Of a stretch of 64,000 nt of DNA, positions 48,693 to 64,000 are shown in pieces. Both the position numbers and the translations under genes were made by a program. The stretch is taken from assembly GCA_030680855.1 (NCBI GenBank), contig JAUXUN010000034.1:1-64000 (forward strand), given 5' to 3'. The notes beneath the pieces are model-generated. The model saw nothing but the letters and a program-made list of their open reading frames with translations. It was not told where the DNA came from and searched no databases. Numbering within the stretch: the first letter of the stretch is position 1; every line of letters starts with the position of its first letter. Source of the DNA: Aestuariivirga sp. (lineage in GTDB: Bacteria; Pseudomonadota; Alphaproteobacteria; Rhizobiales; Aestuariivirgaceae).

Positions 48693-50750
48693 ATGAATTT
48701 CACCCTGACATTCGCCCCCCTTCTGCCCCTGCTTTGGCTTTCCATGCTTGGAGCGGCGGGCCTTGTCCTGATCGCCATTTCGGCCTTCGCCCGGACCCGT
48801 GGCTGGTGGCTGAGAGGGTTGGCGCTGGCTCTCCTGCTTGCAAGCCTGTCAAATCCAACCCTTCGCCATGAAGACCGCGAAGCCCTGAATGACATCGCCG
48901 TTGCCGTCATTGACCGCAGCCAGAGCCAATTGGCCGGCGAGCGTATGAAGCAGGCAGATGAAGCCGAAGCAGCCCTCAAGTCGGCGCTGTTGACACTGAA
49001 CAATACTGAACTGCGCGTCGTGACCGTGCAATCCGGCGTGAACCCGCAAGAGGACGGCACCCGGCTCTTCACTGCTCTCAACCGGGCGCTGAGCGATATT
49101 CCTCCGGAACGTTTTGCCGGAGCATTGCTGGTGACGGATGGCCAGGTGCATGACGTCCCTCCTGAAGCGGCCAAGAGCGGCATCAACGGGCCGGTACATG
49201 GCCTGCTCACCGGCAGCCAGACGGAGCGTGACCGCCGCGTGGTGATTGAACAGGCGCCGCGCTTCGGCATTGTCGGTAACGCGCAAATCCTGCGCTTTCG
49301 CGTGGATGATGTGGGCGGCGGCGGCCAGCCCATCGATGTGGCGATCAAGCTCGGCACGGGCACGCCGCAAAGCCTGACGGTGACGCCGGGCGTGAGCGCC
49401 GAGGTTCCAGTTACGCTCGATCACGGCGGGCAAAACATCGCGGAGATTGTGGCTCCGACCATGCCCGATGAAATATCGCTGGAAAACAACCGCGCCATTG
49501 CCGTGGTTGAGGGCATCCGAGACCGCCTGCGCGTGCTGCTGGTATCCGGCGAGCCCCACCCCGGCGAGCGCACCTGGCGCAACCTGTTGAAAGCTGATGC
49601 CTCGGTTGACCTCGTGCATTTCACCATTCTGCGCCCGCCGGAAAAACAGGATGGCACCCCCATCAATGAACTCGCCCTCATAGCCTTCCCGACCCGCGAA
49701 CTCTTCGTTGAGAAGCTCGATCAGTTTGATCTGGTGATTTTTGACCGCTACCACCGCGAAGCGGTTTTGCCCGAAGCCTACATCATGCAGATCGCTCGCT
49801 ATGTGAATGAAGGCGGCGCCTTGCTTGTGGCGGCAGGTCCCGAGTTCGCCATGAACGATGGCCTCTACAGCACCCCCATGTCCGATGTTCTGGCCGCCTC
49901 GCCCACCGGCGAAGTGCTGGACGGTGCGTTTCGTCCCGAGGTGACCAAGCCCGGCACCCGCCACCCGGTAACCGGCGGCCTGCCCGGCGGCGAAGCGGCA
50001 ACACCCACCTGGGGCAAGTGGTTTCGCGTCGTTGAAACCACCGCACCGGAAATCGAAACGCTCATGTCGGGCATCACCGGCTCGCCGCTGCTGGTGCTCT
50101 CACGCCGCGGTGAAGGCCGTGCCGCCCAGCTTCTCTCCGATCAAAGCTGGCTCTGGGCCAGGGGCTATGATGGCGGGGGCCCGCAAACCGAATTACTGCG
50201 CCGCCTCGCCCACTGGCTGATGAAGGAACCCGACCTGGAAGAGGAGGCCTTGAACGGCAGGCAACTGGGCCGTGAGCTGACAGTCACGCGCCGCACCATG
50301 GCCGACACGGCAGAGCCGGTAACTATCACGGCACCGTCAGGCGCTGCCTCGACTGTCACTCTCACCGAAAAAACCCCGGGCCTGTGGCAGGGCAGCCTGA
50401 AGGTCGATGAGGCTGGCATGTATGCCTTGAACGACGGCAAGCTTCAGGCCGTGGCAGCCGCCGCCGCAGGCGATGCCCGCGAGGCGCAGGATATTCTTGC
50501 AACGCCAATCAAACTCGCACCGATTACCAAGGCAACCGGCGGCGGCGTTGCCTGGCTTGAAGACGGCCTGCCGCGCCTCATCAAAATTTCAGGCGACCGG
50601 CAAATGGCAGGCGCCGGCTGGCTCGGCCTGAAGGCCAATGGCGCTTACCGCGTCACCGCCGTGAGCGAGGTTCCATTGTTTGCCTCGCTATTGGCACTCG
50701 GCGCTTTGCTTCTGGCGTTCTGCCTGATGTGGTACCGCGAAGGGCACTGA
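48693..50750 (+). CDS. Membrane protein of the MoxR operon with vWA-like and amidotransferase-like parts
   Basis: 685 residues. Two N-terminal membrane helices (about 10-32 and 38-55) are followed by a vWA-like start IAVAVIDRSQSQLAGERM near 70, which does keep a D-x-S-x-S motif. A middle region resembles the glutamine-amidotransferase-like fold seen in large operon members of this type (RYVNEGGALLVAAGPEFAMNDG near 365), and one more helix ends the protein (LLALGALLLAFCLMWYREGH). It begins one base after the DUF4159 gene stop. Its 3' end overlaps the convergent GNAT gene by 63 bases. Confidence 0.9.
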   Translation: MNFTLTFAPLLPLLWLSMLGAAGLVLIAISAFARTRGWWLRGLALALLLASLSNPTLRHEDREALNDIAVAVIDRSQSQLAGERMKQADEAEAALKSALLTLNNTELRVVTVQSGVNPQEDGTRLFTALNRALSDIPPERFAGALLVTDGQVHDVPPEAAKSGINGPVHGLLTGSQTERDRRVVIEQAPRFGIVGNAQILRFRVDDVGGGGQPIDVAIKLGTGTPQSLTVTPGVSAEVPVTLDHGGQNIAEIVAPTMPDEISLENNRAIAVVEGIRDRLRVLLVSGEPHPGERTWRNLLKADASVDLVHFTILRPPEKQDGTPINELALIAFPTRELFVEKLDQFDLVIFDRYHREAVLPEAYIMQIARYVNEGGALLVAAGPEFAMNDGLYSTPMSDVLAASPTGEVLDGAFRPEVTKPGTRHPVTGGLPGGEAATPTWGKWFRVVETTAPEIETLMSGITGSPLLVLSRRGEGRAAQLLSDQSWLWARGYDGGGPQTELLRRLAHWLMKEPDLEEEALNGRQLGRELTVTRRTMADTAEPVTITAPSGAASTVTLTEKTPGLWQGSLKVDEAGMYALNDGKLQAVAAAAAGDAREAQDILATPIKLAPITKATGGGVAWLEDGLPRLIKISGDRQMAGAGWLGLKANGAYRVTAVSEVPLFASLLALGALLLAFCLMWYREGH

Positions 50751-51284
50751 GATTTCCGTAAAACGATGCGGCGGCAGAACCAATCCATGCATCCCAGCCA
50801 AAGCGCCGGGCACGAGCTCCACATAGAGAAATCGAGCGGGATCGACGGGACCCGGCATGAGCAACTGGCCTTCCGGCAGTTTGTGGAAGCCAACGCGCGC
50901 ATAATAGGGCGCATCACCCACCAGAATGACAAGCCTGTGGCCCTGTGCCTTGGCGCGGGCCAGGCCCTCCTGCATGAGGGTTAATCCAACACCGAGATTC
51001 TGCCGCTTGGGATGCACCACCAGCGGGCCAAGCAGAAGAGCCGGCGTTCCCGCGCTGCCAATGGCAAGCGGCCAAAAACTTATGGAACCCGCCACGCCAA
51101 CCTCCACATCGCGGACAACCAGGGACAGGCCATCGACGGGCGTGCTTCCTTCCCGCAGGCGGTAGGAGGTTTTGACCCTGCGGTCGATGCCAAAGGCAAT
51201 GTCGAGCAATTGCTCAATGAGGGGCTGGTCGGTTGCTTTCGTGTTTTCGACGGGAAATGAGGCGGCCATCGTGATGAATTCCAT
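50688..51284 (-). CDS. GNAT-family N-acetyltransferase
   Basis: 198 residues if the ATG at 51284 is used; another ATG follows five codons on and may be the true start. The GNAT acetyl-CoA site is seen in LGPLVVHPKRQNLGVGLTLMQEGLARAKAQGHRLVILVGDAPYYARVGFHKLP near residue 85-140 (Q/R-x-x-G-x-G/A). The later part is not recognised. Substrate unknown. The convergent end overlaps the MoxR-operon membrane protein by 63 bases, which is a lot for a true overlap, so one end may be mis-set. Confidence 0.82.
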   Translation of the reverse strand: MEFITMAASFPVENTKATDQPLIEQLLDIAFGIDRRVKTSYRLREGSTPVDGLSLVVRDVEVGVAGSISFWPLAIGSAGTPALLLGPLVVHPKRQNLGVGLTLMQEGLARAKAQGHRLVILVGDAPYYARVGFHKLPEGQLLMPGPVDPARFLYVELVPGALAGMHGLVLPPHRFTEISVPFAVPHQAERQKQSAECQ

Positions 51285-51462
51285 GTCAATTGTTTTGGGA
51301 GCCTGGCCCCAATTCACAGGATCACGAATAAAGGTGAATGAATCCTATGCGGTCCAGGCAAGCGAAAGGGCTGCAGCAGCGCTGGCTCGTCGTCGCAAAC
51401 AATGGGGTGCCGACAGGATCATGGCAGGCCGCATACAAGGCGAAGGCGTTAAGGTCAAGGGC

Positions 51463-51942
51463 CTACCAATTACGGGCAACGCCGCGATTTGAAATAATTT
51501 CATCAAGCCGCCGCCGGGTTCCCCCGGTTGTGCCTTCCGGAAGTTGGTTAATTGCAAAGAACTGCATATGGGATATTTCAAGTGACGGTTGCCATGGCGC
51601 TTGCGTAAATTTGCGCAAAGTCAGCACTGCCACATGGTCACCCGGGAACTGGCCGTCATTCAGGCAAATGCCCTGCAGAACCGGCTCCTCCTCCGCGATG
51701 ATTCCGGCCTCCTCGCGGATTTCACGCTTGGCCGAATCAAAAATCGTCTCGCCCCGTTCCACCCCGCCGCCGGGCAAAAGCCAGCCCGGCGCATAGGAAT
51801 GCCGCACCAGCAGAACCCGGTTTTCCCTGTCAAAAACCGCCGTCCGCGTGCCCAGTGTGAGGCCCCGCGTTTGCCGGTAGAGAGGCTGCAAAACAGTCTT
51901 TGAGGCTATTCTGAGGAGGGTGCTTTTTATCATCGGCAGCAC
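51463..51942 (-). CDS. NUDIX hydrolase
   Basis: 159 residues. The NUDIX box GGGVERGETIFDSAKREIREEAGI near residue 57 is complete (G-x5-E-x7-REIxEEAGI). The N-terminus LLRIASKTVLQPLYRQTRGLTLGTRTAVFDRENRVLLVRHSYAPGWLLPG is typical of small NUDIX proteins acting on nucleoside diphosphate derivatives. It lies between the GNAT gene and the divergent ABC exporter, with the start 82 bases from the latter. Confidence 0.92.
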   Translation of the reverse strand: MLPMIKSTLLRIASKTVLQPLYRQTRGLTLGTRTAVFDRENRVLLVRHSYAPGWLLPGGGVERGETIFDSAKREIREEAGIIAEEEPVLQGICLNDGQFPGDHVAVLTLRKFTQAPWQPSLEISHMQFFAINQLPEGTTGGTRRRLDEIISNRGVARNW

Positions 51943-52024: not shown

Positions 52025-53746
52025 ATGAAGCAACTTCTCATTATATTTTTCAAGGCTGAGGGCACCAAGCCATGGCTTGTTTTGGCCTGCCTTCTGCTGG
52101 CCAGCGTGTCCGAGGCACTAGGCATAGGCACCTTGTTGCCCGCTACGAACGTCATCCTCGGCAACAGCCCGCAAAGTGAAACGGGGGTGGGACTTGCTAT
52201 AAAAACCTTCATCGAATCTCTTGGGATCACCCCGAACCTCGGAAATCTTCTTATCATAATGGTTTCCCTGCTGACCCTGAAGGCGGTAATCTCATTCGCT
52301 GCACTTTCCTACGCCGGAATCACAGGCGCGCGAGTTGCCATAAATTTGCGGCGCAAACTCATCAATGCGATATTCGAGGCGCGCTGGAGTTTTTACGCAG
52401 AGCAAAGCGGCGGCCGATTCGCCAATGCAATCAGCAACGACGCCACGCGGGCGGGCGATGCCTATCAGTTTGCGGCAGCTTTTGTAGCGGGTATTTTGCA
52501 GCTAGCGGCCTATGCAGCTGTAGCCATCATTGTTGACTGGCGTATTGCCCTCCTGGGTGCCATCGCCGGAATTTTCCTGACCCTCGCAATGCGCACCCTT
52601 ATCCGAATTTCAAAGCAAGCGGGCTACAAACAGACAGACCGTGTCTCAAGTCTGACTACCGACATGGTCGACATGCTGAGTAACATCAAAGCCCTGAAAT
52701 CCATGGACCGGTATGGGCTACTTGTTCAGGGCCTCTCAGGCCTCCTAAGGCGCATCAAGCGCAGCTTGGTCACTATCCAGCTTGCAAAGCACGGGGTGAC
52801 ACAGGGGAGCGATGCCCTGGTGAACGTCATGACCGGCGCTGTCGCCTATGCGGCCTACACGCTTTTTGGATCAAGCCTGCCAGAGCTATTGGTGACGGGC
52901 GTCGTATTCTTCCAGATTGTCAACAATATCACAAAGCTTCAAAAACAGTTGCAGGTGGCAGTGGTTATTGAAGGTGCCTATGTACGGACCATCGAGCTAA
53001 TCAAGCAGGCAGAAGCGCAAAGAGAAACGCATTCCGGAATTATCCCGCCTAAGCTTGGAGCCGGATGCAAATTTGAAGACGTGACTTTTGCCCACGGTTC
53101 CACTCCGGTAATTTCCAAAGCCACCTTCGATGTGCCGGCAAACAGGATCACAGTGCTGCAGGGTCCATCCGGTTCCGGAAAGACTACGCTCATTGATTTG
53201 CTTATCGGCCTGAACACCGCTCAAAAAGGCAGAATCCTGATTGGGAACCAGACCATCGAAACCATTAATATCAAGGCCTGGCGCCAGAGCATTGGTTATG
53301 TGCCCCAGGAACTCATGCTGTTTCACGATACCATTCACGAAAATATCAGCCTTTCAAATCCGGATATTTCGGCAGAAGCCACCCTTGCCGCCCTGGAACA
53401 GGCAGGCGCGGGAGAATTCATTGACGCCCTGCCAGACGGCATTGAAACCGATGTCGGTGAAATGGGCGGCAGGCTTTCCGGCGGCCAGCGCCAGCGCATT
53501 GCGCTTGCCCGCGCCCTCGTGACAAATCCAAAGTTGCTGATCCTTGATGAAGTCACCAGCGCCCTTGACCCCGAAACCGAAGCCGAGATCGTCAGCAACA
53601 TCGCGTCGCTGCGCGGGCGCTATACGATTATTGCCATCACCCACCGGCCCGCTTGGACAAAAATTGCCGACAGGCTCTATACCATTTCAAAGGGTCATGT
53701 TTCCTCTCCGAAACCTTCCTCAAAATCCAAAAGCGCAAAACGATGA
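52025..53746 (+). CDS. Exporter-type ABC transporter (fused permease and ATPase), putative lipid exporter
   Basis: 573 residues from the ATG at 52025; a TTG at 51983 in frame is possible. N-terminal membrane domain with about six helices (first KPWLVLACLLLASVSEALGIG), C-terminal ATPase with Walker A LQGPSGSGKTTLIDLLIGL near 380, signature LSGGQRQRIALARALV near 480 and Walker B LLILDEVTSALDPETEAEI. MsbA-like half-transporters of this design move lipids, peptides or drugs. The stop overlaps the start of a GNAT-like gene by 4 bases (ATGA), so the two are co-translated. In a sphingolipid locus it could flip a lipid intermediate. Confidence 0.92.
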   Translation: MKQLLIIFFKAEGTKPWLVLACLLLASVSEALGIGTLLPATNVILGNSPQSETGVGLAIKTFIESLGITPNLGNLLIIMVSLLTLKAVISFAALSYAGITGARVAINLRRKLINAIFEARWSFYAEQSGGRFANAISNDATRAGDAYQFAAAFVAGILQLAAYAAVAIIVDWRIALLGAIAGIFLTLAMRTLIRISKQAGYKQTDRVSSLTTDMVDMLSNIKALKSMDRYGLLVQGLSGLLRRIKRSLVTIQLAKHGVTQGSDALVNVMTGAVAYAAYTLFGSSLPELLVTGVVFFQIVNNITKLQKQLQVAVVIEGAYVRTIELIKQAEAQRETHSGIIPPKLGAGCKFEDVTFAHGSTPVISKATFDVPANRITVLQGPSGSGKTTLIDLLIGLNTAQKGRILIGNQTIETINIKAWRQSIGYVPQELMLFHDTIHENISLSNPDISAEATLAALEQAGAGEFIDALPDGIETDVGEMGGRLSGGQRQRIALARALVTNPKLLILDEVTSALDPETEAEIVSNIASLRGRYTIIAITHRPAWTKIADRLYTISKGHVSSPKPSSKSKSAKR

Positions 53747-54876
53747 CCGTCAGCGTCAGGCCTGTTCTCTCAAAGCAGGATAAAAAACTATTCCTTGACG
53801 TCCCCTTCGCACTTTATGGCAAGGGTACGAACTGGATAGCGCCACTCTATTTTGAACGCCTTGAACACCTCAATCCGAAAAAGAACCCCTATTTTCAGCA
53901 CGCCGAAACCCAGCTCTTTCTGGCAGAGATGGACGGCAAACCCGTTGGCCGCATATCCGCGCAGATCGACCGCCTGCACCTGGAGCGTCACCATGACGCC
54001 GCGGGCCAGTTTGGTTTTCTCGAAGCGCCAAATGATCCGGAAGTTTTTGCTGCCCTGTTTGGTGCGGCAGAGGAGTGGCTGAAGTCACGCGGCATGAAAG
54101 CCGCACGCGGTCCATTCAGCTTTTCAATCAATGATGAAATGGGCCTCCTTGTTGACGGCTTTGACAGCCCGCCAAGCATGATGATGGGTCACGCCCTGCC
54201 CTATTACGCGGCCCGGGTTGAAGCATCAGGCTTCACCAAGGCCAAGGACGTTATCGCCTATTATTATGATGACCATAATGCCCTGCCAAAACCGCTTTCC
54301 ATTGCCTATGATCGGGCCATGCGGTCACCCCAAATTGATGTGCGCCCTCTCGACAAAAAAAATCTTGCCCGTGATCTAGAAATCATCCTGTCGATCCACA
54401 GTGACGCATGGTCTGAGAACTGGGGCTTCATTCCCTTTACACCGGGGGAACTCAAGGTTCTCGGTGACAATCTCAAGATTCTTGTAAAAAAAGAGTATAT
54501 CGCAATCGCCAATTACAAGGGTGTGCCAGCGGCTTTTTCGGTGACACTCCCCAACATCAACGAATGGATATCCGGATTGAACGGCAGGCTGTTGCCATTC
54601 GGCTGGGCAAAGCTGGCATGGAATCTCTTTGGCCGCGCGCCGCATTCCGTGCGCATGCCACTCATGGGCGTGCGCAAGGAATTCCACGGTACAATGGCAG
54701 GCTCATCCCTGGCCCTCGCAGTTATCGAAACCGTACGCCGCTATCACATTTCGCGGGGCACCAGAAGCGGAGAACTTTCCTGGATTCTGGAGGATAACCG
54801 GCCCATGCGCCACATGCTCGAGGCGCTGGGAGCCCGCCCCTACAAGACCTATCGCATTTACGAAAAGGCGCTCTAG
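53743..54876 (+). CDS. GNAT-fold acyltransferase, candidate bacterial ceramide synthase
   Basis: 377 residues from the ATG at 53743. It has two GNAT-like halves, LFLDVPFALYGKGTNWIAPLYFERLEHLNP at the start, GPFSFSINDEMGLLVDGFDSPPSMMMGH near 122, and a GNAT-like end SGELSWILEDNRPMRHMLEALGARPYKTYRIYEKAL. This is the pattern of a widely spread alphaproteobacterial GNAT-like family often called 'dATP pyrophosphohydrolase' in error. The bacterial ceramide synthase (bCerS) of Caulobacter is a GNAT-fold acyl-CoA-dependent N-acyltransferase in the same type of locus. The family match is from memory; the assignment is inferred from context. Confidence 0.75.
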   Translation: MTVSVRPVLSKQDKKLFLDVPFALYGKGTNWIAPLYFERLEHLNPKKNPYFQHAETQLFLAEMDGKPVGRISAQIDRLHLERHHDAAGQFGFLEAPNDPEVFAALFGAAEEWLKSRGMKAARGPFSFSINDEMGLLVDGFDSPPSMMMGHALPYYAARVEASGFTKAKDVIAYYYDDHNALPKPLSIAYDRAMRSPQIDVRPLDKKNLARDLEIILSIHSDAWSENWGFIPFTPGELKVLGDNLKILVKKEYIAIANYKGVPAAFSVTLPNINEWISGLNGRLLPFGWAKLAWNLFGRAPHSVRMPLMGVRKEFHGTMAGSSLALAVIETVRRYHISRGTRSGELSWILEDNRPMRHMLEALGARPYKTYRIYEKAL

Positions 54877-55652
54877 TGGCGAAAAACTGGACAGCGATCG
54901 TCCTGGCCGCCGGACGGGGCCCCAATGATCCCATGGCGAAAGCCTATGGCGTAAGCCACAAGTGCACCCTGCCCGTGAACGGCGTGCCAATGCTGCGGCG
55001 GGTCGTGAACGCCCTGCAAAAATCACAGTCGATCACCTCAATCGCCATATCCATTGAAAATCCCGCCATTGTGCGTGAGGCCTTGGCGGAAAAAGAGTCA
55101 GGCATTGCCGTCATTGCTTCGGAAAGCTCTGCCCCTCTCTCGGCCATTGTTGCCATCAGGACGAACCCCGCTTTTCCGGTGCTGATCACAACGGCGGACC
55201 ATGCCTTGCTGACGCCTGAGATGATTGACTATTTCTGCGGACACGCGGAGCATAATGGCGCGGACTTTTCCGCCGGGCTGGCCACAGCAGAAGTGATCAT
55301 GAAAGCCTATCCGCAATCAGTTCGCACCTTCTTCAGGTTCAGCAAGGACCGTGTTTCGGGCTGCAATCTTTTCGCCATAACCAATGAAAACGGCCTTCGC
55401 ATTCTCGAGAAATGGCAATATCTCGAACAGTCACGAAAAAAACCATGGCGTCTGGTTGCCGCCTTCGGCCCCCTTGCGCTCATTCGCTTTGCGGTGGGTG
55501 CCCTGTCTCTCGACGGCGCCTTCAAAGTTGTTTCAAGCAGGCTTGGGCTAACCGCAAAACCAGTCCTCTTGCCCTTTGCCGAAGCCGCCATTGATGTGGA
55601 CAAGCCCTCGGATCTTGAGTTGGCCGAGGCAATTCTGAAGCTGCGGAATTAA
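54876..55652 (+). CDS. MobA-like nucleotidyltransferase (GT-A fold)
   Basis: 258 residues from a GTG at 54876 that overlaps the preceding TAG by one base. WTAIVLAAGRGPNDPMAKAYGVSHKCTLPVNGVPMLRRVVNAL is the L-A-A-G-x-G... NTP-binding start, with an insertion compared with the usual L-A-A-G-x-G-x-R-M spacing; ITTADHALLTPEMIDY near 107 carries the metal Asp. The rest matches MobA/GlmU-like NTP transferases loosely. It could activate a head-group alcohol as a CDP derivative for the phosphatidyltransferase. The next gene is convergent (4-base overlap). Confidence 0.82.
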   Translation: MAKNWTAIVLAAGRGPNDPMAKAYGVSHKCTLPVNGVPMLRRVVNALQKSQSITSIAISIENPAIVREALAEKESGIAVIASESSAPLSAIVAIRTNPAFPVLITTADHALLTPEMIDYFCGHAEHNGADFSAGLATAEVIMKAYPQSVRTFFRFSKDRVSGCNLFAITNENGLRILEKWQYLEQSRKKPWRLVAAFGPLALIRFAVGALSLDGAFKVVSSRLGLTAKPVLLPFAEAAIDVDKPSDLELAEAILKLRN

Positions 55653-56380
55653 ACCCAGCTGGCAACCAATTGCCGCGCCTGCTGCAAATCGATTGGAAAA
55701 TCCACCTCGCACCACTGCAATCCGTTAATCGGAATGGTGCGGATTTCAATTTTTTTGGCAAGCGATCCGACGGCAGCAGGAAACCATTGCTTCAGGGCCT
55801 GCGGATCACGCATGGCGCGTTCCAATGTTTCAACATAGGCAAGGGAGCCCGCGCCGCGAAACACATAGAAGCCGATGGCTTCCGCATCCACCGTATCAAC
55901 CGGCAGGGTCTTGCCGATTTCAGTCAGGCGGCCGCGGTCAAGAATGACCTTCATGTCATCGCTGTCATAGGCCTGCTTGAGATTGGTGGCCACACCTACA
56001 GGAACAACCGGGGCCGCCAGGAGCTTTTCAACGAGATCGCTGCGGAATACATTGTCGCCGTTAACCTGGATGAAATCGCCGGTCATGGACGCGCGCGCCA
56101 TCCAGCAGCTCGCCAGATTGTCGGCAACCGCATAGAAGGGATTGAACACCGTGCTGATCGCAACACCCAGGCTTTGGCCAATTTTCGCCAAGACTTCATC
56201 CATGCGCGGCGCCCCATAACCGGTGACAACCGTGAACTCCTTGAGGCCCCGCGCCGCGAACGCCTCAATTTGCCTTTCGATCAATGTCTTGCCCCCAATG
56301 TCGAGAAGGGCCTTGGGAACTTCCGTGGTCAGTGGCAAAAGCCGTTTGCCCTGGCCTGCTGCAAGAATAACTATACGCAC
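55649..56380 (-). CDS. Sugar/choline-type nucleotidyltransferase (LicC-like)
   Basis: 243 residues from a GTG at 56380 (VRIVILAAGQGKRLLPLTTEVPKALLDIGGK). It is a GT-A fold pyrophosphorylase; after the L-A-A-G-x-G-x-R-L motif and K-A-L come VADNLASCWMARASMTGDFIQVNGDNVF near residue 85, which resembles LicC-type phosphocholine cytidylyltransferase or glucose-1-phosphate types. The true start is not certain: the frame continues to 56452. It is the only gene on the minus strand in the middle of this cluster; it may serve a related head group. Confidence 0.82.
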   Translation of the reverse strand: MRIVILAAGQGKRLLPLTTEVPKALLDIGGKTLIERQIEAFAARGLKEFTVVTGYGAPRMDEVLAKIGQSLGVAISTVFNPFYAVADNLASCWMARASMTGDFIQVNGDNVFRSDLVEKLLAAPVVPVGVATNLKQAYDSDDMKVILDRGRLTEIGKTLPVDTVDAEAIGFYVFRGAGSLAYVETLERAMRDPQALKQWFPAAVGSLAKKIEIRTIPINGLQWCEVDFPIDLQQARQLVASWV

Positions 56381-56465
56381 AATGCTTGAATCCACGTCTA
56401 ACAGAAGGGTAAGTACGGACTGCTCATTCGCACCCGATTCCCCAGAAGTCAACGGAAGCTAAGAT

Positions 56466-57371
56466 TTGGCCCTAACGCTCGCTCATCTCTCGGATGTCCA
56501 TCTCGGGCCTTTGCCCCCGGGGGCCGCATGGGAAAATTTTGCCCTGAAACGCGTTATCGGCGTGCTGAACTGGAAATTGAGGCGGCACAAGCTGCATGAT
56601 ACCGCCATTTCCAATGCCCTTATTGCCGATATCAAGGCCGCATCCCCCGATCATGTGGCCTTCACTGGCGATTTGATGAATGTATCGGCCCATGCTGAAT
56701 TTCCCCGCGCCGCGCGCTGGCTGCGGAACTTCGGAGATCCCGCCTGGATATCCTATGTGCCGGGAAACCATGACGCCTACGTGCCCGTGCCTTGGCAACA
56801 GGGCCTGGCCCATCTCGCCCCATACATGACCGGAGACATGGCCGCCACAGGTTCCCACTCCTCATTTCCCTATGTACGCCTGCGCCGGAACCTGGCGATT
56901 ATTGGCTTGAATTCGGGCATTCCCCAATCCCTGACCAGGGCGGCAGGCTCCCTCGGCCCCAAGCAGCTTGAGGCCCTGCCCGGGCTTCTGCATGACTTGA
57001 AAGCCAAGGGCTATTACCGCGCCGTCATGATTCATCATCCACCTTTGCCGGGCCTCGCGCCGCCACGAAAGGCCCTCAGTGATGCCGTCCGCTTGCGCGA
57101 TATTTTGGCAAGCGAAGGGGCGGAACTGGTGTTGCATGGCCACAATCACCAGCAGATGCTCAATGTTCTTGCAGGGCGTGACGGCAATATCCCCATTATC
57201 GGCGTGCCATCCGCCTCCATGAATGACACGGGCCATGCCGAACCCGCCGCCTGGATCCTTTATCAAATCAGCCGGAATCAGGGCACATGGATGACCGAGG
57301 TTTCGACCCGGGCATGGGATCCCAAATCCCGCCGAATGGCGCCCCAAAACCAATTCACGCTTCCTTCCTGA
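56466..57371 (+). CDS. Calcineurin-like metallophosphoesterase
   Basis: 301 residues from a TTG at 56466 with GGAAG 8 bases upstream. All metal motifs are seen: LAHLSDVHLG near 5-13, VAFTGDLMNVS near 66, YVPGNHDAY near 97, VMIHHPP near 182 and LVLHGHNHQQ near 226. It hydrolyses a phosphoester or pyrophosphate such as a CDP- or UDP-lipid, a role played by LpxH-like members. In this locus a lipid or CDP-lipid phosphatase job is plausible but unproven. Part of the stop-side end overlaps no gene. Confidence 0.92.
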   Translation: MALTLAHLSDVHLGPLPPGAAWENFALKRVIGVLNWKLRRHKLHDTAISNALIADIKAASPDHVAFTGDLMNVSAHAEFPRAARWLRNFGDPAWISYVPGNHDAYVPVPWQQGLAHLAPYMTGDMAATGSHSSFPYVRLRRNLAIIGLNSGIPQSLTRAAGSLGPKQLEALPGLLHDLKAKGYYRAVMIHHPPLPGLAPPRKALSDAVRLRDILASEGAELVLHGHNHQQMLNVLAGRDGNIPIIGVPSASMNDTGHAEPAAWILYQISRNQGTWMTEVSTRAWDPKSRRMAPQNQFTLPS

Positions 57372-57397
57372 GCCCACTTCGGGGTAAGTTGTCGGCC

Positions 57398-57835
57398 ATG
57401 AACGCCACGATGCAGAAATTTGGCTATCCCGGCAGCCTGGTGAAAGAACACCACCACTGGTGCGTGCTGCTGCGCCCCCAGCAAGTAACGCTTGGCAGCC
57501 TGGTTCTCGCCGCTAAGTCCGATGCCACCGCCTTTTCCGACCTGCCGCCAACGGCTTTCGCCGAGCTTTCAATTGTGGTCACCGAGATTGAGCAGAGCCT
57601 GCGGAGATTTAGCCCTTATGACAAAATCAATTATCTCATGCTGATGATGGTCGATCCGCACGTCCACATGCATGTGGTCCCGCGTTACGCCAAACCACAG
57701 TTCTTTGACGCCACCGAGTTTGCCGATACGGGCTGGCCCGGCCTTCCTGACCTTAAATCCGCTCCCGTGCTGACTGACAAACTCCGCAAAAACCTGTTAT
57801 GGACCCTGCAGTTGCGGATGTCGGGAGAATCATAG
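57398..57835 (+). CDS. HIT-family hydrolase
   Basis: 145 residues from the ATG at 57398 (GGGGTAAG upstream). The histidine triad reads DPHVHMHVVPRY near residue 92 (H-x-H-x-H). The front half, LVKEHHHWCVLLRPQQVTLGSLVLAAKSDATAFSDLPPTAFAELSIVV, fits the nucleotide-binding HIT fold. HIT enzymes cleave nucleoside phosphoramidates or dinucleotide polyphosphates. Its place between a metallophosphoesterase and lptF suggests a role in nucleotide recycling or CDP-lipid turnover. Confidence 0.9.
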   Translation: MNATMQKFGYPGSLVKEHHHWCVLLRPQQVTLGSLVLAAKSDATAFSDLPPTAFAELSIVVTEIEQSLRRFSPYDKINYLMLMMVDPHVHMHVVPRYAKPQFFDATEFADTGWPGLPDLKSAPVLTDKLRKNLLWTLQLRMSGES

Positions 57836-57839
57836 GCCT

Positions 57840-59060
57840 GTGCTGACCATTATCGACCGCTATGTTCTCAGGCAGGTGGCAAAGCCGTTGGCGACAGCCA
57901 TGGCGATCGGCCTGCTCATGCTGCTCGCTGAAAGGCTTGTGCGCCTGCTTGATACAACGCTTGGCAAGAAAAATTCCTTTGGCGTGGTCTTTGAACTCCT
58001 CGCTTATCTGGTGCCCCATTATCTGGGAACCGCCATTCCGGCAGCACTTTTCCTGGGTCTGCTCTTTGGCTTCAGCAAGCTGTCGAAGGACAGCGAAATT
58101 GACGCTATGATGGCCACCGGAACGGGCCTGCACCGCCTCACCCGGCCGGTAGTCATGCTGTCATTGGCGCTCGGCGCCCTCTCGCTTTTCATCGTTGGCT
58201 GGCTGCAACCGCAGACCCGTTACGCCTATCGCTCGGTGCTGTTTGATGTCAAGAATGTTGAAGTTTTCTATCTCGCCGAGGAAGGGGTGTTCATGCAGGC
58301 GGGCACCCGCACCTTCATCCTGGACAAGTTGAACCGCTCCAGCAACACGTTCGAACATGTCTTTCTGTTTGATTACCGGGGGCCTTCCGGATTGGAAACA
58401 CTCACCGCTTCGTCGGGGGTTCTGATCCCCCTGGAGGGCCAGCGCCGCCCCGTTCTGAGATTGGACAACGGCCACCGGCTGAAACTTGACCGCTGGCCCA
58501 CCTTGGATAGCAACGCCGAAATCCCCCAAGCCGGCATAGCCGAATTTGCAACAACCGACACGCCGCTTGGAAAAATCTCCGACAGTATTTTCCGCCCGCG
58601 CGGCGAAGATGAGCGGGAACTCACCTTGCCTGAACTTTACACTCAGCTCGACTCCCCGCCGAAGGGCTCGACGCGTAATTCCATGGTTGCGGAATTGCAC
58701 AAGCGAATTGTCAACGTGGTCACTTTCTTCATGTTGCCCTTGCTCGCGGTGCCCTTTGCGATTGGCCGCCAGCGCAGCCAGCGCGGCTATCGCTTCGGCA
58801 TCGCATTGGTCATTGTCGTGGCCTTCCACGAAATCATTGAACAGGGAGCCGTGGCCACCCGGATAAGCGGGCTTTCCCCCTGGCTGAGCATGTGGCTGGC
58901 ATTCGGGCTAATCACCGCCTTCGCAATTTGGCGTTTCTACAAGACCTGTTTTACCTTGAAGCCTGATCGCATCGGCAGCAGCATTGACGCGTTTGGCGCA
59001 AGCGTCCATCGCCTGTGGCGTCCGCTGGCGCGGCGAATTGGTTTGGGAGCACAGCCATGA
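57840..59060 (+). CDS. lptF: LptF-like permease (YjgP/YjgQ family), LPS/lipid export
   Basis: 406 residues from a GTG at 57840. Six membrane helices: three before and three after a large periplasmic part. The start IIDRYVLRQVAKPLATAMAIGLLMLLAERLVRLLDTTL and the following KNSFGVVFELLAYLVPHYLGTAIPAALFLGLLF are typical of LptF/LptG. The second block FFMLPLLAVPFAIGRQRSQRGYRFGIALVIV is likewise. LptF/LptG form the inner membrane part of the LPS exporter with LptB. The lptG ATG overlaps its stop by 4 bases. Being beside sphingolipid-type genes, this pair may move that lipid. Confidence 0.9.
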   Translation: MLTIIDRYVLRQVAKPLATAMAIGLLMLLAERLVRLLDTTLGKKNSFGVVFELLAYLVPHYLGTAIPAALFLGLLFGFSKLSKDSEIDAMMATGTGLHRLTRPVVMLSLALGALSLFIVGWLQPQTRYAYRSVLFDVKNVEVFYLAEEGVFMQAGTRTFILDKLNRSSNTFEHVFLFDYRGPSGLETLTASSGVLIPLEGQRRPVLRLDNGHRLKLDRWPTLDSNAEIPQAGIAEFATTDTPLGKISDSIFRPRGEDERELTLPELYTQLDSPPKGSTRNSMVAELHKRIVNVVTFFMLPLLAVPFAIGRQRSQRGYRFGIALVIVVAFHEIIEQGAVATRISGLSPWLSMWLAFGLITAFAIWRFYKTCFTLKPDRIGSSIDAFGASVHRLWRPLARRIGLGAQP

Positions 59061-60130
59061 CCACCATCGGCTGGATGCTCACCCGCATGATCGTGACCCG
59101 CTTTCTCGGCATTCTGTTCGGGATCACCATTTTTGTGCTGACCCTCGAAGTCATTTCCTACGCCAATGAAATTCTCGCCCTCGACAAGGGCAGCTTGAGC
59201 ATTGTGTTCACATACATGTTGATGCGCGCACCTTCGACCCTGGCAACATTCCTGCCCATGAGCGTTTTGCTGGCGCTCCTTCTCACTCTCATGGAGCTCA
59301 GCTACCGCAATGAGATTACCGCCATTTGGGCATCCGGCGCTTCGCCGCGCCGCCTGATCATCATGCTGTTGCCGCTTGCCTTTGTGACCGGCGGCATCAA
59401 TTTTCTCCTGAATGACCAGGCCATTCCGGCCGCCGCCCCGCAATTGAAGGAATGGGGCGTGGCCGACTATGGCGAGAAGAAACTGAAGCTCGGCGAGCGC
59501 GATCCCATTTGGATGAGGTCTGGCGCCGATATCCTGCGGGCGGCCTCGTCAAACGCCCAGTCAACCGAGCTTGAAGACGTCATTATCTTCCGCCGCGATC
59601 CAGGCGGCCTCCTGCGCGAACAGATTATTGCCAAAGAGGCGGAACTGCAGGGTGACCGCTGGAATCTCACGAACGTAATCGTCTATTACCGCGAAAACCT
59701 GCCGGCCAGCCGGCTTGACCGCATGGTCTATTCCGGGGCCTTGAAACCCGCCGCGGCGGGGGCGCGTTCCGGTGACCCGGAGGAAATGACCATTTCCGAC
59801 CTCAATTATTTTATCGCCAATTCCGGTTTTGGAATCCGCCCGGTCTGGGTCTATGAAACTTGGTGGCAAAAGCGCATTTCACTGTTCTTCGCAACCCTCG
59901 TGATGATCGCCATTTGCATTCCAATTGCCACCCGCTTTCGCCGCGGCGGCGGCTTGGGTTTGCTGTTTGCAACCGGCGTGGGACTTGGCTTTCTCTATTT
60001 CGTGGCCGATGGCCTCTCTCTCACCATGGGTGAACTGGGATTTGTGAGCCCCTGGATGGCAGCGTGGATGCCCATCTTGACCTTTAGTGCTCTGGCGACA
60101 GCCCTAAGCCTTCGCATCGACAGAGTGTAG
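59057..60130 (+). CDS. lptG: LptG-like permease (YjgP/YjgQ family)
   Basis: 357 residues from the ATG at 59057, overlapping lptF by 4 bases. TRMIVTRFLGILFGITIFVLTLEVISYANEILAL at the start is the first helix, PSTLATFLPMSVLLALLLTLMELSYRNEITAIWASG near 68 the conserved block after helix 2 (R-N-E-I-x-A-x-x-A-S-G), and the C-terminal helices carry LVMIAICIPIATRFRRGGGLG and GLGFLYFVADGLS. It pairs with LptF. The next gene, the phosphatidyltransferase, starts 2 bases after the stop. Confidence 0.92.
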   Translation: MTTIGWMLTRMIVTRFLGILFGITIFVLTLEVISYANEILALDKGSLSIVFTYMLMRAPSTLATFLPMSVLLALLLTLMELSYRNEITAIWASGASPRRLIIMLLPLAFVTGGINFLLNDQAIPAAAPQLKEWGVADYGEKKLKLGERDPIWMRSGADILRAASSNAQSTELEDVIIFRRDPGGLLREQIIAKEAELQGDRWNLTNVIVYYRENLPASRLDRMVYSGALKPAAAGARSGDPEEMTISDLNYFIANSGFGIRPVWVYETWWQKRISLFFATLVMIAICIPIATRFRRGGGLGLLFATGVGLGFLYFVADGLSLTMGELGFVSPWMAAWMPILTFSALATALSLRIDRV

Positions 60131-60131
60131 C

Positions 60132-61391
60132 ATGACAACAAAAGCAAGGGCCAAGCCCGCCAAAAAATCTCCGGTCAAAAAACTGCAGGGAAGACCTGTG
60201 CCAAAAGTGGCGATTGCGCCAAAGGCGGCGGAACGGAAGGCGTCCATTCATTTCAGCCCGGTCCTGTGCATCGTAAACGCCCCGGAACAAGAATTGTGGT
60301 CCCTGTCCCTGGCAGAACGATTAAGAAAGCAATTCGCCATCGCGGGCCTTCCCCAGACCGTGAGTGAGGAAACGGCGATCTCCCACAACGGCCCCGTCAT
60401 CCTGGTGCGCGGCGATGCGGTGATTGACCAGCCTCTCATTCCTGTCCTGCTCAAGCGGCCGAATTTTCTGCTGCTGAGCGATGCTGCGGAAAACCAAGTG
60501 CCCATTGCCGCCAGCGTGCGCGGCAACGATGTTTCGCTGGCCATCGAAATCCTGCGCGGCGCCAAGCCATATGCCGCGGCAAAGTTGCTCGCCCGAGCCC
60601 CGGCACAGCTTGACATGGAGTTCTGGAAATCGCTGCGCAAGCGTGAAACGCCCTATGCCATGGTTGTCACGGCCGAAAACCGGAACGCTGTTGAATGGCG
60701 CATGTTCATGGGCACCTACAAGGGCGCCACGGATGTCATCACCAAGCACCTGTGGCCCGTTCCGGCATTCCATGCCACGCGCTTTCTGGCCCCACGCGGC
60801 GTAACGCCCAACATGGTGACGGCAATCGCTGCCCTCATGACAGTTCTGGCATACTGGTTTTTCCTGAACGGCCAGTTCATTCCAGGCCTCATTTCCGCCT
60901 GGGCCATGACTTTCCTTGACACCGTGGATGGCAAGCTTGCCCGCACCACGTTGACGTCAAGCAAATGGGGCGACTACTTCGATCACGGCATCGATCTCAT
61001 CCACCCGCCCTTCTGGTATGTAGCCTGGGGCTATGGCCTGCTGGCCACCGGAACCCAATGGAGCAACCAAATTTTCTGGGGCGTGATGGTGGCCATTCTC
61101 GGTGGCTACGTACTGCAGCGCGCGATTGAGGGCATTGCCATCAAATGGCTGGGCCTTGAGATTCACATCTGGCGCTCCATCGATACCTGCTTCCGCCAGG
61201 TCACGGCGCGGCGAAACCCCAACCTTATTTTACTGACGTTCTTCACCGCCATTGCCAAACCTGATTGGGGTCTGCTGGCGGTTGCGGCCTGGACGGTGAT
61301 TTGCCTCGGCCTTCACATGCTCCAATTGCTGCAGGCGTTCGCCGCGAAACGCAGTACGGGCGCGCTCACCTCATGGATGACCAGGCCGTGA
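60132..61391 (+). CDS. CDP-alcohol phosphatidyltransferase with degenerate nucleotidyltransferase-like N-terminal part
   Basis: 419 residues. A basic tail (1-35) precedes a soluble part of ~170 residues (about 45-210) that reads like a decayed NTP-transferase domain: NGPVILVRGDAVIDQPLIPVLLK near 86 and GTYKGATDVITKHLWPVPAFHATRFLAPRGVTPNMVTAI near 194, the join seen in fused IPCT-DIPPS-type enzymes, but the LAAGxG loop is missing. The catalytic CDP-alcohol motif is complete, FLDTVDGKLARTTLTSSKWG followed by DYFDHGIDL (263-285). About six helices follow. The stop overlaps the lipid kinase gene by 19 bases. Confidence 0.9.
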   Translation: MTTKARAKPAKKSPVKKLQGRPVPKVAIAPKAAERKASIHFSPVLCIVNAPEQELWSLSLAERLRKQFAIAGLPQTVSEETAISHNGPVILVRGDAVIDQPLIPVLLKRPNFLLLSDAAENQVPIAASVRGNDVSLAIEILRGAKPYAAAKLLARAPAQLDMEFWKSLRKRETPYAMVVTAENRNAVEWRMFMGTYKGATDVITKHLWPVPAFHATRFLAPRGVTPNMVTAIAALMTVLAYWFFLNGQFIPGLISAWAMTFLDTVDGKLARTTLTSSKWGDYFDHGIDLIHPPFWYVAWGYGLLATGTQWSNQIFWGVMVAILGGYVLQRAIEGIAIKWLGLEIHIWRSIDTCFRQVTARRNPNLILLTFFTAIAKPDWGLLAVAAWTVICLGLHMLQLLQAFAAKRSTGALTSWMTRP

Positions 61392-62344
61392 AGCGCGCGG
61401 GCTTGTTGATCAATCCCAGTTCCGGAAAATCCAGCGGCAAGGGCCTGGGCCTGGTCGACATGCTGAAAAACAATGCAGCGGTTTCGATCCGCGTGCTCGA
61501 GAGGTTTGAACAGCTTACGGGCTTTCTCGACGAGTTCGCCAGCGACGGGGTGACTGACCTGTTCATCAGCTCCGGCGATGGCACCATTCACGCCGTTCAA
61601 ACGGATCTGGTGGAGCGCAAGCCCTTCAAGGTCATTCCCCGCCTCAGTCTCTTGCCCCATGGCACCACCAACATGACCGCCGCCGATCTTGGCTTTCCCC
61701 ACAGGGGGTTGCGGGCGCAGGCCGATTTCATCACGCGGCTGGAAGCAAAACAGCTGCGCGAACGCCCCACCCTGCGGGTGGTCAATCCCCGCGATGGCAA
61801 GCCGCGGCATGGCATGTTTTTGGGCACTGGGGCAGCTTCCGAAGCCACGCTGTTTTGCCAGCGTGTTTTCAACGCCAAGGGGGTCAAGGGAAGCTGGGCG
61901 ACGTTCGCAACGCTTGCCGGCGCCGCCGGCCGCACCATGTTCACCAGACCCAACCCCCATGATGTCACCCGCTTTGACCGTCCTTTTCCCATTCAGGTGA
62001 CCAGCGATGGCCGGGAATTCAGCAGCGGAACCCAGCTTTTGGCATTTTCCACTACCCTTGAGAAACTCATCCTCGGGGCAAGGCCCTTCTGGGGCCCGAA
62101 ACTTGGCCCCATCCGCACCTCGGTTTTCCCCTACCCTGTACCGAGTATTCCGCGTTGGCTCCTACCCATCATGTATGCGGGCGAAAACCGGAAAATGCCG
62201 GAAGGCGCCGTAAGTTTTTCCAGCGCCCGCCTGGAAATCACCTGCCCCATCAGCTTCGTGATTGATGGCGAATTCTTTGACGCTCCAGAAAATGAGCCCT
62301 TGAAGGTGGAAACCGGCGCGGTTTTCACCTATCTCTGCGGCTGA
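61373..62344 (+). CDS. Diacylglycerol/ceramide kinase-family lipid kinase
   Basis: 323 residues from the ATG at 61373. The DAGK catalytic motif is LFISSGDGTIHAVQTDL near residue 64 (S-G-D-G-T in place of G-G-D-G-T), the N-terminal ATP-site LLINPSSGKSSGKG is present, and GTTNMTAADLGF near 100 gives the family N-x-T-A-x-D-L. C-terminal CPISFVIDGEFFDAPENEPLKV has the D-G-E motif. In the Caulobacter spt region the kinase of this family is a ceramide kinase (CpgB). The ATG overlaps the preceding stop; its own stop overlaps the next start by one base. Confidence 0.88.
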   Translation: MDDQAVKRAGLLINPSSGKSSGKGLGLVDMLKNNAAVSIRVLERFEQLTGFLDEFASDGVTDLFISSGDGTIHAVQTDLVERKPFKVIPRLSLLPHGTTNMTAADLGFPHRGLRAQADFITRLEAKQLRERPTLRVVNPRDGKPRHGMFLGTGAASEATLFCQRVFNAKGVKGSWATFATLAGAAGRTMFTRPNPHDVTRFDRPFPIQVTSDGREFSSGTQLLAFSTTLEKLILGARPFWGPKLGPIRTSVFPYPVPSIPRWLLPIMYAGENRKMPEGAVSFSSARLEITCPISFVIDGEFFDAPENEPLKVETGAVFTYLCG

Positions 62345-63219
62345 TGATTGCATCGCCAGAGAGTCTGAAGGAATTCTGCAAGGCTTCGCTTGCCCGCGAG
62401 GTGTCGCCAGAGATTCACGCGATGGCAGTTGTCCTGCGCCTGAGGCACCCGGGAGCGGTGGCCATTCTGGCCTACGGATCATGCCTGCGGGGCGTTGAGG
62501 TGGCCGACACGCTGATGGACTTTTACGTCCTCATGGAAAATTTTTCCGGCGTCAGCCAAAACATCATCAGCCGCGTCGCCTGCTGCATTGTTCCCCCCAA
62601 TGTCTATTATGCCGAGACGGAATTTGCGGGCCAGCGCCTGCGCGCCAAATACGCGCTCCTCCCCTTGCGGCTCTTTGTCAAATGGATGGCGCGGGAAACC
62701 AGCAACCCTTATTTCTGGGCCCGCTTCGCCCAACCCTCGGCCCTTGTCTACGCACGTGATGACCAGACTAAAGACGAAGTCGTCGCTGGCATCTCCACGG
62801 CTCTGCGAACTGCTTTTGCCAACGCCAAGGCTCTGACAAGCGAACCCGATGCTTTAGCCATTTGGACGGCTGGCTTCAATGCAACTTATAAATCCGAGTT
62901 TCGCTCCGAGAAAGCCAATCGTGCCGCCAGCATCGTTTCCGCAGCGCCCGAATACTACAGGGAAGCTGCAAGGCTTCTGGCTCCGGAAATTCCTGTTCAT
63001 GCCAACCAAACCCTGCGCCGCTTGACGGGCAAAGGCTGGTCCATCCTGCGCCTGATCAAAGCCGCCTTCACTTTTCAGGGCGGCGCCGATTACATCGCCT
63101 GGAAAATCGAGCGGCATTCGGGAGAAAAAATCATTCTCACCGACTGGCAGAGAAGGCACCCCGTCATTGCAGGATTACTGCTGCTTCCCGCACTGCTGCG
63201 CAAAGGCGCAGTCCGCTAG
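62344..63219 (+). CDS. Tam41-like nucleotidyltransferase, candidate CDP-lipid synthase
   Basis: 291 residues, start ATG overlapping the kinase stop (TGATG). The front has a nucleotidyltransferase-type site: VAILAYGSCLRGVEVADTLMDFYVLMEN near residues 39-65 (G-S-x(n)-D/E-x-D). Then NVYYAETEFAGQRLRAKYALLPLRLFVKWM and NPYFWARFAQPSALVYARD correspond in order and spacing to Tam41 blocks (YGSG..., D-x-x-x-x-V, K-Y-G-V-I, W-x-x-L-Y-x-A-G-R-x-x-K-P). Tam41 makes CDP-diacylglycerol in mitochondria and some bacteria. The last 80 residues include a membrane-like segment (VIAGLLLLPALLRKG). I did not align it; the family match is by eye. Confidence 0.65.
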   Translation: MIASPESLKEFCKASLAREVSPEIHAMAVVLRLRHPGAVAILAYGSCLRGVEVADTLMDFYVLMENFSGVSQNIISRVACCIVPPNVYYAETEFAGQRLRAKYALLPLRLFVKWMARETSNPYFWARFAQPSALVYARDDQTKDEVVAGISTALRTAFANAKALTSEPDALAIWTAGFNATYKSEFRSEKANRAASIVSAAPEYYREAARLLAPEIPVHANQTLRRLTGKGWSILRLIKAAFTFQGGADYIAWKIERHSGEKIILTDWQRRHPVIAGLLLLPALLRKGAVR

Positions 63220-64000
63220 GCCGCAGCCCGGCTCGCCACGACTTTTCCAAACAGCGCGATGATCTTGTCGATGTCGTCAAAACTGTGCGCCGCCGACACC
63301 GAACAGCGGAGAAGGCACAGCTTGTTCGGCGTTCCCGGCGGCAACGCGATGTTTACATAGACGCCCGCTTCGAGAAGGGCGTTCCACATGCCGATGGTTG
63401 AAACCTCATCGGCACATTTCACTGCAATCACCGGGCTTACCATGTCACAACCCATATCAAGGCCCAACCCCTTGAACCCGGCAAAGAGCCGGGCCGAGTT
63501 GGCCCGCAGGCGGTCGCGGCGTTCCGGCTCGGCGGCCAGCTTCCTGATGGCGGCAAGCGAAGTCGCAATCGATGCCGGCGACGACGAGGCCGTGAACATG
63601 TAGGGCCGCATGGCATAGCGCAAGGTCTCAAACATCGGGTGGTTGCCCGCCCCAAAACCGCCGATGGCGCCAACGCTCTTGGAGAACGTGCCAACGATGA
63701 AATCAATGTCATCCTCAACGCCGGCCTCATCGGCAAGGCCGCGGCCATGGGGGCCGAGCACGCCAAAGGAATGGGCCTCGTCGGCAAGAAGCTGAAAGCC
63801 ATGCTTTTTCTTGACGGCAACGAAATCGGCCAAGGGAGCGCGGTCGCCCAGCATCGAATAGATGCCCTCGACAACCACAAGCCGCCCGCCCTCTTCGCCT
63901 TCCGAGCGCGTCAGCCGCTTGTCCAAATCCGTTGCGTCATTGTGGCGGAAGCGCACCAGCTTGGCGCCTGAAAGCGTGCAGCCGTCATAAATGGAGGAAT
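63216..64000 (-). CDS. spt: Alpha-oxoamine synthase of serine palmitoyltransferase type (partial, N-terminus beyond window)
   Basis: The C-terminal ~261 residues of a PLP-dependent aminotransferase-fold enzyme; the reading frame stays open through position 64000 (SSIYDGCTLSGAKLVRFRHND at the edge), so the gene starts outside the window. Motifs: VVEGIYSMLGDRAPLADFVAVKKKHGFQLLADEAHSFGVLGPHGRG (PLP Asp/His), then IVGTFSKSVGAIGGFG with the Schiff-base Lys, and a C-terminal TSLAAIRKLAAEPERRDRL. This group makes 3-ketosphinganine, aminolevulinate or KAPA; context favours serine palmitoyltransferase. It is convergent with the Tam41-like gene, and the two stops share a CTAG palindrome. Confidence 0.8.
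   Translation of the reverse strand, partial: SSIYDGCTLSGAKLVRFRHNDATDLDKRLTRSEGEEGGRLVVVEGIYSMLGDRAPLADFVAVKKKHGFQLLADEAHSFGVLGPHGRGLADEAGVEDDIDFIVGTFSKSVGAIGGFGAGNHPMFETLRYAMRPYMFTASSSPASIATSLAAIRKLAAEPERRDRLRANSARLFAGFKGLGLDMGCDMVSPVIAVKCADEVSTIGMWNALLEAGVYVNIALPPGTPNKLCLLRCSVSAAHSFDDIDKIIALFGKVVASRAAA

Follow-up and report, generated by a model that had tools for sequence, protein, structure and literature searches.

The window analysed here comprises 64,000 nucleotides, positions 1-64000 of contig JAUXUN010000034.1 (C47), from Aestuariivirga sp. GCA_030680855.1, a genome of 3,730,072 bases in 85 contigs that is 100% complete. It carries a complete ceramide-phosphoglycerate (CPG/CPG2-type) locus, the remaining genes of which lie just past the window end. 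We consider it likely, at a probability of roughly 80%, that this locus directs the synthesis and export of a phosphosphingolipid which takes the place of lipopolysaccharide (LPS) in the outer membrane. The locus is more than another copy of a known cluster: its host has no detected lipid A synthesis, and the sole LptF/LptG (LptFG) pair of the genome is of the sphingolipid type. The initial annotation had already read the region as a sphingolipid synthesis and export locus. Gene families and flanks support that pathway call, and from them we infer production of the lipid itself; the missing LpxC/LpxB match and the single LptFG pair of the host had been overlooked.

Lipid A and Lpt genes in Aestuariivirgaceae

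LpxC (PF03331) and LpxB (PF02684) have no match in the host genome (LpxA, LpxD, LpxK and KdtA were outside the search). E. coli and Caulobacter controls were positive for the LpxC profile. The profile PF03739 finds exactly two proteins in the host, namely LptF (57840..59060, plus strand, 230 bits) and LptG (59057..60130, plus strand, 218 bits) of the window locus, both scoring above the profile cut-off. LptD is encoded on contig C68, and LptC, LptA and an LptB-type ABC protein are grouped on C53. Of the LPS exporter LptB2FGC-A-DE, the components LptA, B, C, D, F and G are therefore all encoded in the genome (LptE was outside the search). The likeness ends at the cargo pathway, as LpxC and LpxB are unmatched, and the LptF and LptG proteins branch separately from those of the LPS type.

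All 12 genomes sampled from the same family are without LpxC and LpxB matches, and bCerS (the ceramide synthase candidate), LptFG, LptC and LptD are present in each. Two named members of the Aestuariivirgaceae (Hyphomicrobiales) are referred to below, Aestuariivirga litoralis KCTC 52945 (G068) from the same genus and Taklimakanibacter lacteus (G228) from the same family. LptF and LptG are both located in the locus in G000, T. lacteus, G135, G208, A. litoralis and G294. In G022, they are found within the same 20 kb as the locus, in inverted orientation.

Phylogeny of LptF and LptG

In careful trees, the copies from sphingolipid loci are separated from the LPS-type copies by one branch, both for LptF (33 versus 18 rows, support 100/100) and for LptG (37 versus 18 rows, 100/99). 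These trees exclude the very long sequences from the sphingolipid loci of f20 and f43 (families of the order are given by code); in the quick trees that included it, the f20 LptG was placed on the LPS side with a support of only 40. The window LptF and LptG, which are encoded in the vicinity of bCerS and spt, lie outside the LPS-type clade. They group with the additional pair found in species that have lipid A; both types occur in f7 and f34. Of 25 copies added in a further tree, four are the LPS-type pairs of G006 and G094 (f7, lipid-A-positive), and these fall with the LPS type. Two very divergent copies of G079 have unsure places.

The two types also differ in single residues (f34 and f43 rows were tallied separately). 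LPS-type LptG proteins of the order are basic at positions 37 (R in 19/20) and 38 (R or K in 20/20), whereas sphingolipid-type proteins mostly have an acidic residue at 38 (25/27). Residue 32 of LptF is Q in 17/20 LPS-type and R in 23/23 sphingolipid-type copies. In an LPS-bound structure (sf proteins, by our reading from Shigella flexneri), K34, K40 and R136 of LptG and R33 of LptF bind LPS phosphates, according to the section of PMC6744409 on these contacts.

Copy numbers vary among relatives. The lipid-A-less genome G036 (C55, C79, C127; L065, L123-L125) encodes one LptG and four LptF-type proteins, and A. litoralis, G135 and G208 have one extra LptF-type copy each. A single LptG may have more than one LptF partner.

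Loss of lipid A within one genus

Genus g36 of family f34 contains species with and without LpxB. The LpxB-positive species (G034, G076, G142, G170, G252) have four LptFG proteins each. The LpxB-negative species (G111, G269, G193, G215, G235) have two each, located beside bCerS, and form one clade (LptG 100/100, LptF 91/90). The simplest history is a single loss of lipid A that removed the LPS-type pair and spared the sphingolipid-type pair. LptD is kept in all five of these lipid-A-less genomes. Three of them, G193, G215 and G235, have no LpxB match but retain a divergent protein resembling LpxC (E 1e-67 to 1e-70).

Survey of the order

Searches for LpxC, bCerS (E <= 1e-5) and LptF/LptG all covered one set of 297 genomes from the order. 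LpxC was matched in 257 genomes and in none of the other 40. LptFG was found in 285 of the 297 and bCerS in 70. The latter divide into 31 LpxC-less genomes (of 40) and 39 LpxC-positive ones (of 257). LpxB was searched in 52 chosen genomes, and the lipid-A-less set was corrected accordingly: the LpxC-less genomes G089, G162 and G279 (58-85% complete) have LpxB and were removed, and the f34 genomes G193, G215 and G235, with a divergent LpxC match only and no LpxB, were added. The final set again comprises 40 genomes.

Within this set, 32 genomes carry bCerS (five of them are less than 90% complete). LptFG is present in 32/32 of these, LptD in 31/32 and LptC in 27/32; the genome without LptD, G144, is 61% complete, and all five without LptC belong to f34. 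Among the eight lipid-A-less genomes without bCerS, LptFG and LptD are each found in one (1/8) and LptC in none of the seven searched. The only one of these eight that keeps LptFG and LptD, G123, is 56% complete. What differs from the case of LPS-lacking Sphingomonas is that Lpt content is tabulated for 40 lipid-A-less genomes from another order, and that the kept pair is identified. We think it rather likely, with somewhat less confidence than for the window locus, that lipid A was discarded in Aestuariivirgaceae and in f5, f15, f36, f37, f38 and f47, and independently in the f34/g36 sub-clade. In these lineages, Lpt would have been given over to phosphosphingolipid export, with loss of the LPS-type LptFG alongside LPS, retention of the sphingolipid-type pair and a change of cargo for LptA-D.

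Two further patterns were seen in the order. The f51 genomes G051, G088, G122, G151, G176 and G199 (71-98% complete) and G066 (99%) have no match for LpxC, LpxB, LptFG, LptD or bCerS, nor for LptC. With neither LPS nor Lpt, they must assemble their outer membrane in another way. The f41 genomes G041, G081, G146, G173, G195 and G217 encode four LptFG proteins and have no bCerS match, which points to an additional Lpt pair that serves a different function.

Cargo of the Lpt system

Since no lipid A synthesis and no other LptFG were detected in the host, the whole Lpt machine would serve the phosphosphingolipid; transport of this lipid over the Lpt bridge is strongly suggested. A different cargo is the best-surviving alternative. 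The phosphosphingolipid would then be made as proposed, LptFG would carry another surface lipid (a glycolipid or glycerolipid), and the neighborhood of the genes would be incidental. The extra LptF-type copies located away from the locus in lipid-A-less relatives such as G036 mean that Lpt may have several cargoes, and the A. litoralis locus retains LptFG though CpgA, CpgC and CpgD are not there, so that the cargo need not be CPG2 itself. This explanation is nevertheless unlikely, as LptF and LptG are both encoded with bCerS in 33 of the 41 named loci of at least 18 kb, LptFG is missing from seven of the eight lipid-A-less genomes without bCerS, and it is the bCerS-adjacent pair that was kept after the loss of LPS in f34.

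It is less probable still that a divergent lipid A pathway was missed, with LptFG carrying an LPS-like molecule and the sphingolipid as an extra. The search was limited to LpxC and LpxB, and the divergent LpxC-like protein of the three LpxB-less f34 species would fit such a pathway. The same LpxC profile, however, matched 257 of the 297 genomes and the controls, and none of the 12 family genomes is matched by LpxC or LpxB. In addition, only one of the placed LptFG copies from lipid-A-less genomes (G014) is located in an LPS-type clade.

Several points weigh against a dedicated phosphosphingolipid exporter. Genome counts are not independent owing to kinship, which the association statistics ignore; our estimate, made without a species tree, is that only about two clearly separate losses of LPS fall in lineages that have the locus (the big group and f34) and two more in lineages that do not (f51 and G066). 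The f7 genome G006, counted as lipid-A-positive, has LpxC and no LpxB match, so a single missing family is no proof of loss. In the five lipid-A-less f34 genomes, no LptC was detected by PF06835. Four genus mates (G264, G186, G247, G104) have LptG alone in the locus and LptF elsewhere, and the LptFG pair of G163 is located on another short contig, its bCerS contig being only 8 kb long. The LptG-like copy of G014 in an LPS-type clade (C197:7438-8487, L129) is either a relic or a contamination of this 430-contig assembly. The trees do not include two G037 copies (C8), a further G014 copy (C197:5376-6437), three G114 copies (C272, C484) and the short pieces from G078. The correspondence with Caulobacter discussed below is one of families, gene order and published description, not of sequence comparison. 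Finally, the basic-to-acidic change in the first transmembrane segment (TM1) of LptG is weakened as a cargo switch: according to the residues quoted in PMC12738788, P. aeruginosa LptG has D34/N37/D38 and is thus acidic there too, so that the swap is not decisive and serves as a clade marker only.

A dedicated phosphosphingolipid exporter would have practical consequences. The question of sphingolipid transport is tangled in Caulobacter, since LPS uses a sister system there. No LPS pathway was detected in the present host, and a phenotype of lptF, lptG or lptD could therefore be read for the sphingolipid alone. If the interpretation is true, such bacteria are natural Lpt-without-LPS organisms that allow direct tests of sphingolipid transport, and they offer a natural comparison for the evolution of Lpt cargo choice. 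The data also suggest that Lpt genes alone are no proof of LPS, which matters for annotation.

Synthesis genes of the locus

The serine palmitoyltransferase gene (SPT, 398 aa; 63216..64412, minus strand) crosses the window end, with the C-terminal part (63216..64000) inside. Against PDB sequences, it scores 452.8 bits to the solved SPT 2x8u, compared with 206.5 for a cysteate-C-fatty acyltransferase, 195.8 for the best 2-amino-3-ketobutyrate ligase (KBL), 179.3 for the best chain named 8-amino-7-oxononanoate synthase alone and 150 for 5-aminolevulinate synthase. Beyond the window, genes for an acyl carrier protein (ACP, 64417-64665), a CerR-like epimerase (64674-65627) and an AMP-binding acyl-CoA synthetase (65646-67469) follow one another on the minus strand, the ACP gene adjoining SPT. 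The initial annotation had named these three genes as the flank to be expected, and hem or bio genes and a better match to HemA or BioF as the contrary outcome; hem and bio genes are not there. The alternative of a common BioF/HemA/KBL-type alpha-oxoamine synthase region next to lipid genes unrelated to it can thus be dismissed, even though these families are related to SPT, given their far lower scores, the three genes adjoining the synthase and the presence of bCerS in the locus.

The bCerS candidate, an N-acyltransferase (53743..54876, plus strand), matched no Pfam family. Its AlphaFold2 model (pLDDT 86.5) has a predicted tandem GNAT fold, tandem GNAT proteins being the top PDB structure matches, and the gene adjoins SPT in many related loci. 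Similarly, the CpgC candidate (62344..63219, plus strand) is without a Pfam match, and the four best PDB matches of its model (pLDDT 89.4) are all Tam41 (E 4e-7 to 4e-6). Tam41 is a mitochondrial CDP-diacylglycerol synthase with a fold similar to that predicted for CpgC, at an identity of 13-14% and a TM-score of about 0.5; the CpgC substrate would be ceramide-1-phosphate instead.

The other enzymes were assigned by family. The CpgA-like CDP-alcohol phosphotransferase (60132..61391, plus strand) matches CDP-OH_P_transf with 39.6 bits at residues 225-331, behind an N-terminal extension of about 200 residues. It is followed by the ceramide kinase candidate CpgB (61373..62344, plus strand; DAGK_cat, 49.5 bits). 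The CpgD-like CTP:phosphoglycerate cytidylyltransferase candidate (55649..56452, minus strand, start codon uncertain) belongs to NTP_transferase. Its best PDB match is a CTP:phosphocholine cytidylyltransferase, and the inositol-phosphate cytidylyltransferase 4jd0 was also matched; Caulobacter CpgD is absent among its 49 PDB sequence matches. The MobA/CofC-like nucleotidyltransferase (54876..55652, plus strand) has 52 bits to NTP_transf_3 and weak matches to MobA and F420 CofC models. A metallophosphoesterase (56466..57371, plus strand; Metallophos, 43.4 bits) and a HIT-domain protein (57398..57835, plus strand; HIT, 26.4 bits) complete the set between CpgD and LptF. An identity of the phosphoesterase with the anti-phage protein NF053862 was rejected (48.4 vs 420 bits).

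The locus begins with an ABC protein with ABC_membrane and ABC_tran domains (52025..53746, plus strand), which also adjoins the locus in many relatives and is a candidate inner-membrane flippase. With 214.6 bits against an equivalog cut-off of 602, it is an MsbA-like exporter and not MsbA proper.

All genes that had been named in the window were confirmed at the same positions. The overlaps of 1-19 bases are real, the longest being that of CpgA and CpgB if ATG 61373 is taken as the CpgB start. Co-expression, which had been concluded from these overlaps, is overstated for the MobA/CofC-like gene with CpgD and for CpgC with SPT: both pairs are convergent, and their overlaps are uninformative in this respect. 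Loci from seven other or related family groups (codes f1, f5, f7, f36, f37, f38, f47) show the same gene order from the ABC protein to SPT, a recurrence that exceeds chance.

Comparison with Caulobacter and proposed pathway

The Caulobacter region CC_1152-1168, as laid out in the sections of PMC11324152 that describe it, encodes CpgD (1152), 1153, bCerS (1154), LptG2/LptF2 (1155/1156), 1157 and a phosphoesterase (1158), followed by CpgA, CpgB, CpgC, spt, acp, cerR, aas, a flippase (1166), 1167 and LptC2 (1168). The spt/bcerS/cpgABC arrangement on which the initial annotation drew agrees with this description. For 14 of the 17 genes, the window locus has a counterpart by family or described role, namely CpgD, 1153 (the MobA/CofC-like gene), bCerS, LptG2, LptF2, the phosphoesterase, CpgA, CpgB, CpgC, spt, acp, cerR, aas and the flippase. 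A fifteenth counterpart is given by position, the HIT gene taking the place of CC_1157 between the phosphoesterase and LptF. CC_1167 and CC_1168 have no counterpart in the window locus, and the order of the blocks differs. By comparison with the published gene descriptions, the genes of a Caulobacter-type CPG locus are present: SPT with a dedicated ACP, CerR and acyl-CoA synthetase, a bCerS-type ceramide synthase by fold and position, and, by family, CpgA, CpgB, CpgC, CpgD and the 1153/1158 genes.

The main difference concerns export. In Caulobacter, the LptC, LptF and LptG of the region are second versions beside an LPS set, whereas the LptFG of the window is the sole pair of its genome. LptC2/F2/G2 and the flippase have been proposed as phosphosphingolipid carriers for Caulobacter and, in the sections concerned, were not studied further; by what path sphingolipids get to the outer membrane is not known, according to that paper (PMC11324152). 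A sphingolipid in LPS-lacking bacteria is itself an established idea: according to the same source, sphingolipid synthesis seems essential in LPS-lacking Sphingomonas koreensis (PMC11324152).

By analogy with Caulobacter, the pathway may run as follows. SPT, together with a dedicated ACP and acyl-CoA synthetase, would form 3-oxo-sphinganine, which CerR and bCerS would convert, in either order, to (dihydro)ceramide. CpgB would phosphorylate the ceramide, and CpgC, judged by its predicted Tam41 fold, may activate the resulting ceramide-1-phosphate, the proposed product being CDP-ceramide. CpgD would make CDP-glycerate, which CpgA would add to give CPG/CPG2-type lipids. For Caulobacter, the activities of the CpgB kinase and of the CpgD cytidylyltransferase (CC_1152, a CTP:phosphoglycerate cytidylyltransferase) have been assayed, as given in the relevant part of PMC12275187. 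The second nucleotidyltransferase, the phosphoesterase and the HIT protein would act as helpers. The ABC protein would flip the lipid over the inner membrane, from which the sphingolipid-type LptF/LptG, working with LptB, C, A and D from other parts of the genome, would extract it and move it over the Lpt bridge to the outer leaflet.

Shortened loci and the HIT protein

Not all relatives carry the full gene set. In several Aestuariivirga relatives (L055-L057, L059-L062, L070, L172), the loci are shortened and without CpgA, CpgC, CpgD, the 1153-type nucleotidyltransferase and HIT, while LptFG, CpgB, the phosphoesterase and SPT are kept, e.g. in A. litoralis. The head group of the lipids from such loci probably differs. 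As the shortened loci retain LptFG, ceramide-based lipids would form the cargo family, the head group varying by species.

From 120 loci examined, 60 with bCerS, LptG and SPT were compared after removal of 15 duplicates. The HIT gene follows the presence of CpgA in 60/60, with both present in 33 and neither in 27. With the window added, three supported independent pairs differ in CpgA (seven on the best tree), too few for a test, and HIT changes in the same way as CpgA in 3/3. This suggests that the HIT protein belongs to the CpgA step. In the section of PMC11324152 concerned, CC_1157 is called probably unrelated, and Zymomonas is given as being without CC_1157, CpgA and CC_1158.

bCerS outside the order and neighboring genes

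Outside the order, 18 of the 30 genomes behind titled bCerS loci are without an LpxC match, a lead only, as their completeness is not given. They include Aquibaculum arenosum and metagenome-assembled genomes assigned to Emcibacter and Sphingomonadales by their labels. LpxC is matched in two isolates with bCerS loci, Pelagibius marinus and P. litoralis. bCerS relatives also occur in 44 records of a plasmid collection, most commonly in Roseomonas (13), with 45-47% identity among the 15 matches listed. One E. coli copy is named yghO, and two E. coli records are chromosome-sized.

To the left of the locus, two minus-strand genes are located at 50688-51942 of the window, GNAT-like and Nudix-like by sequence reading. 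Counterparts are found in the same place in A. litoralis (L172).

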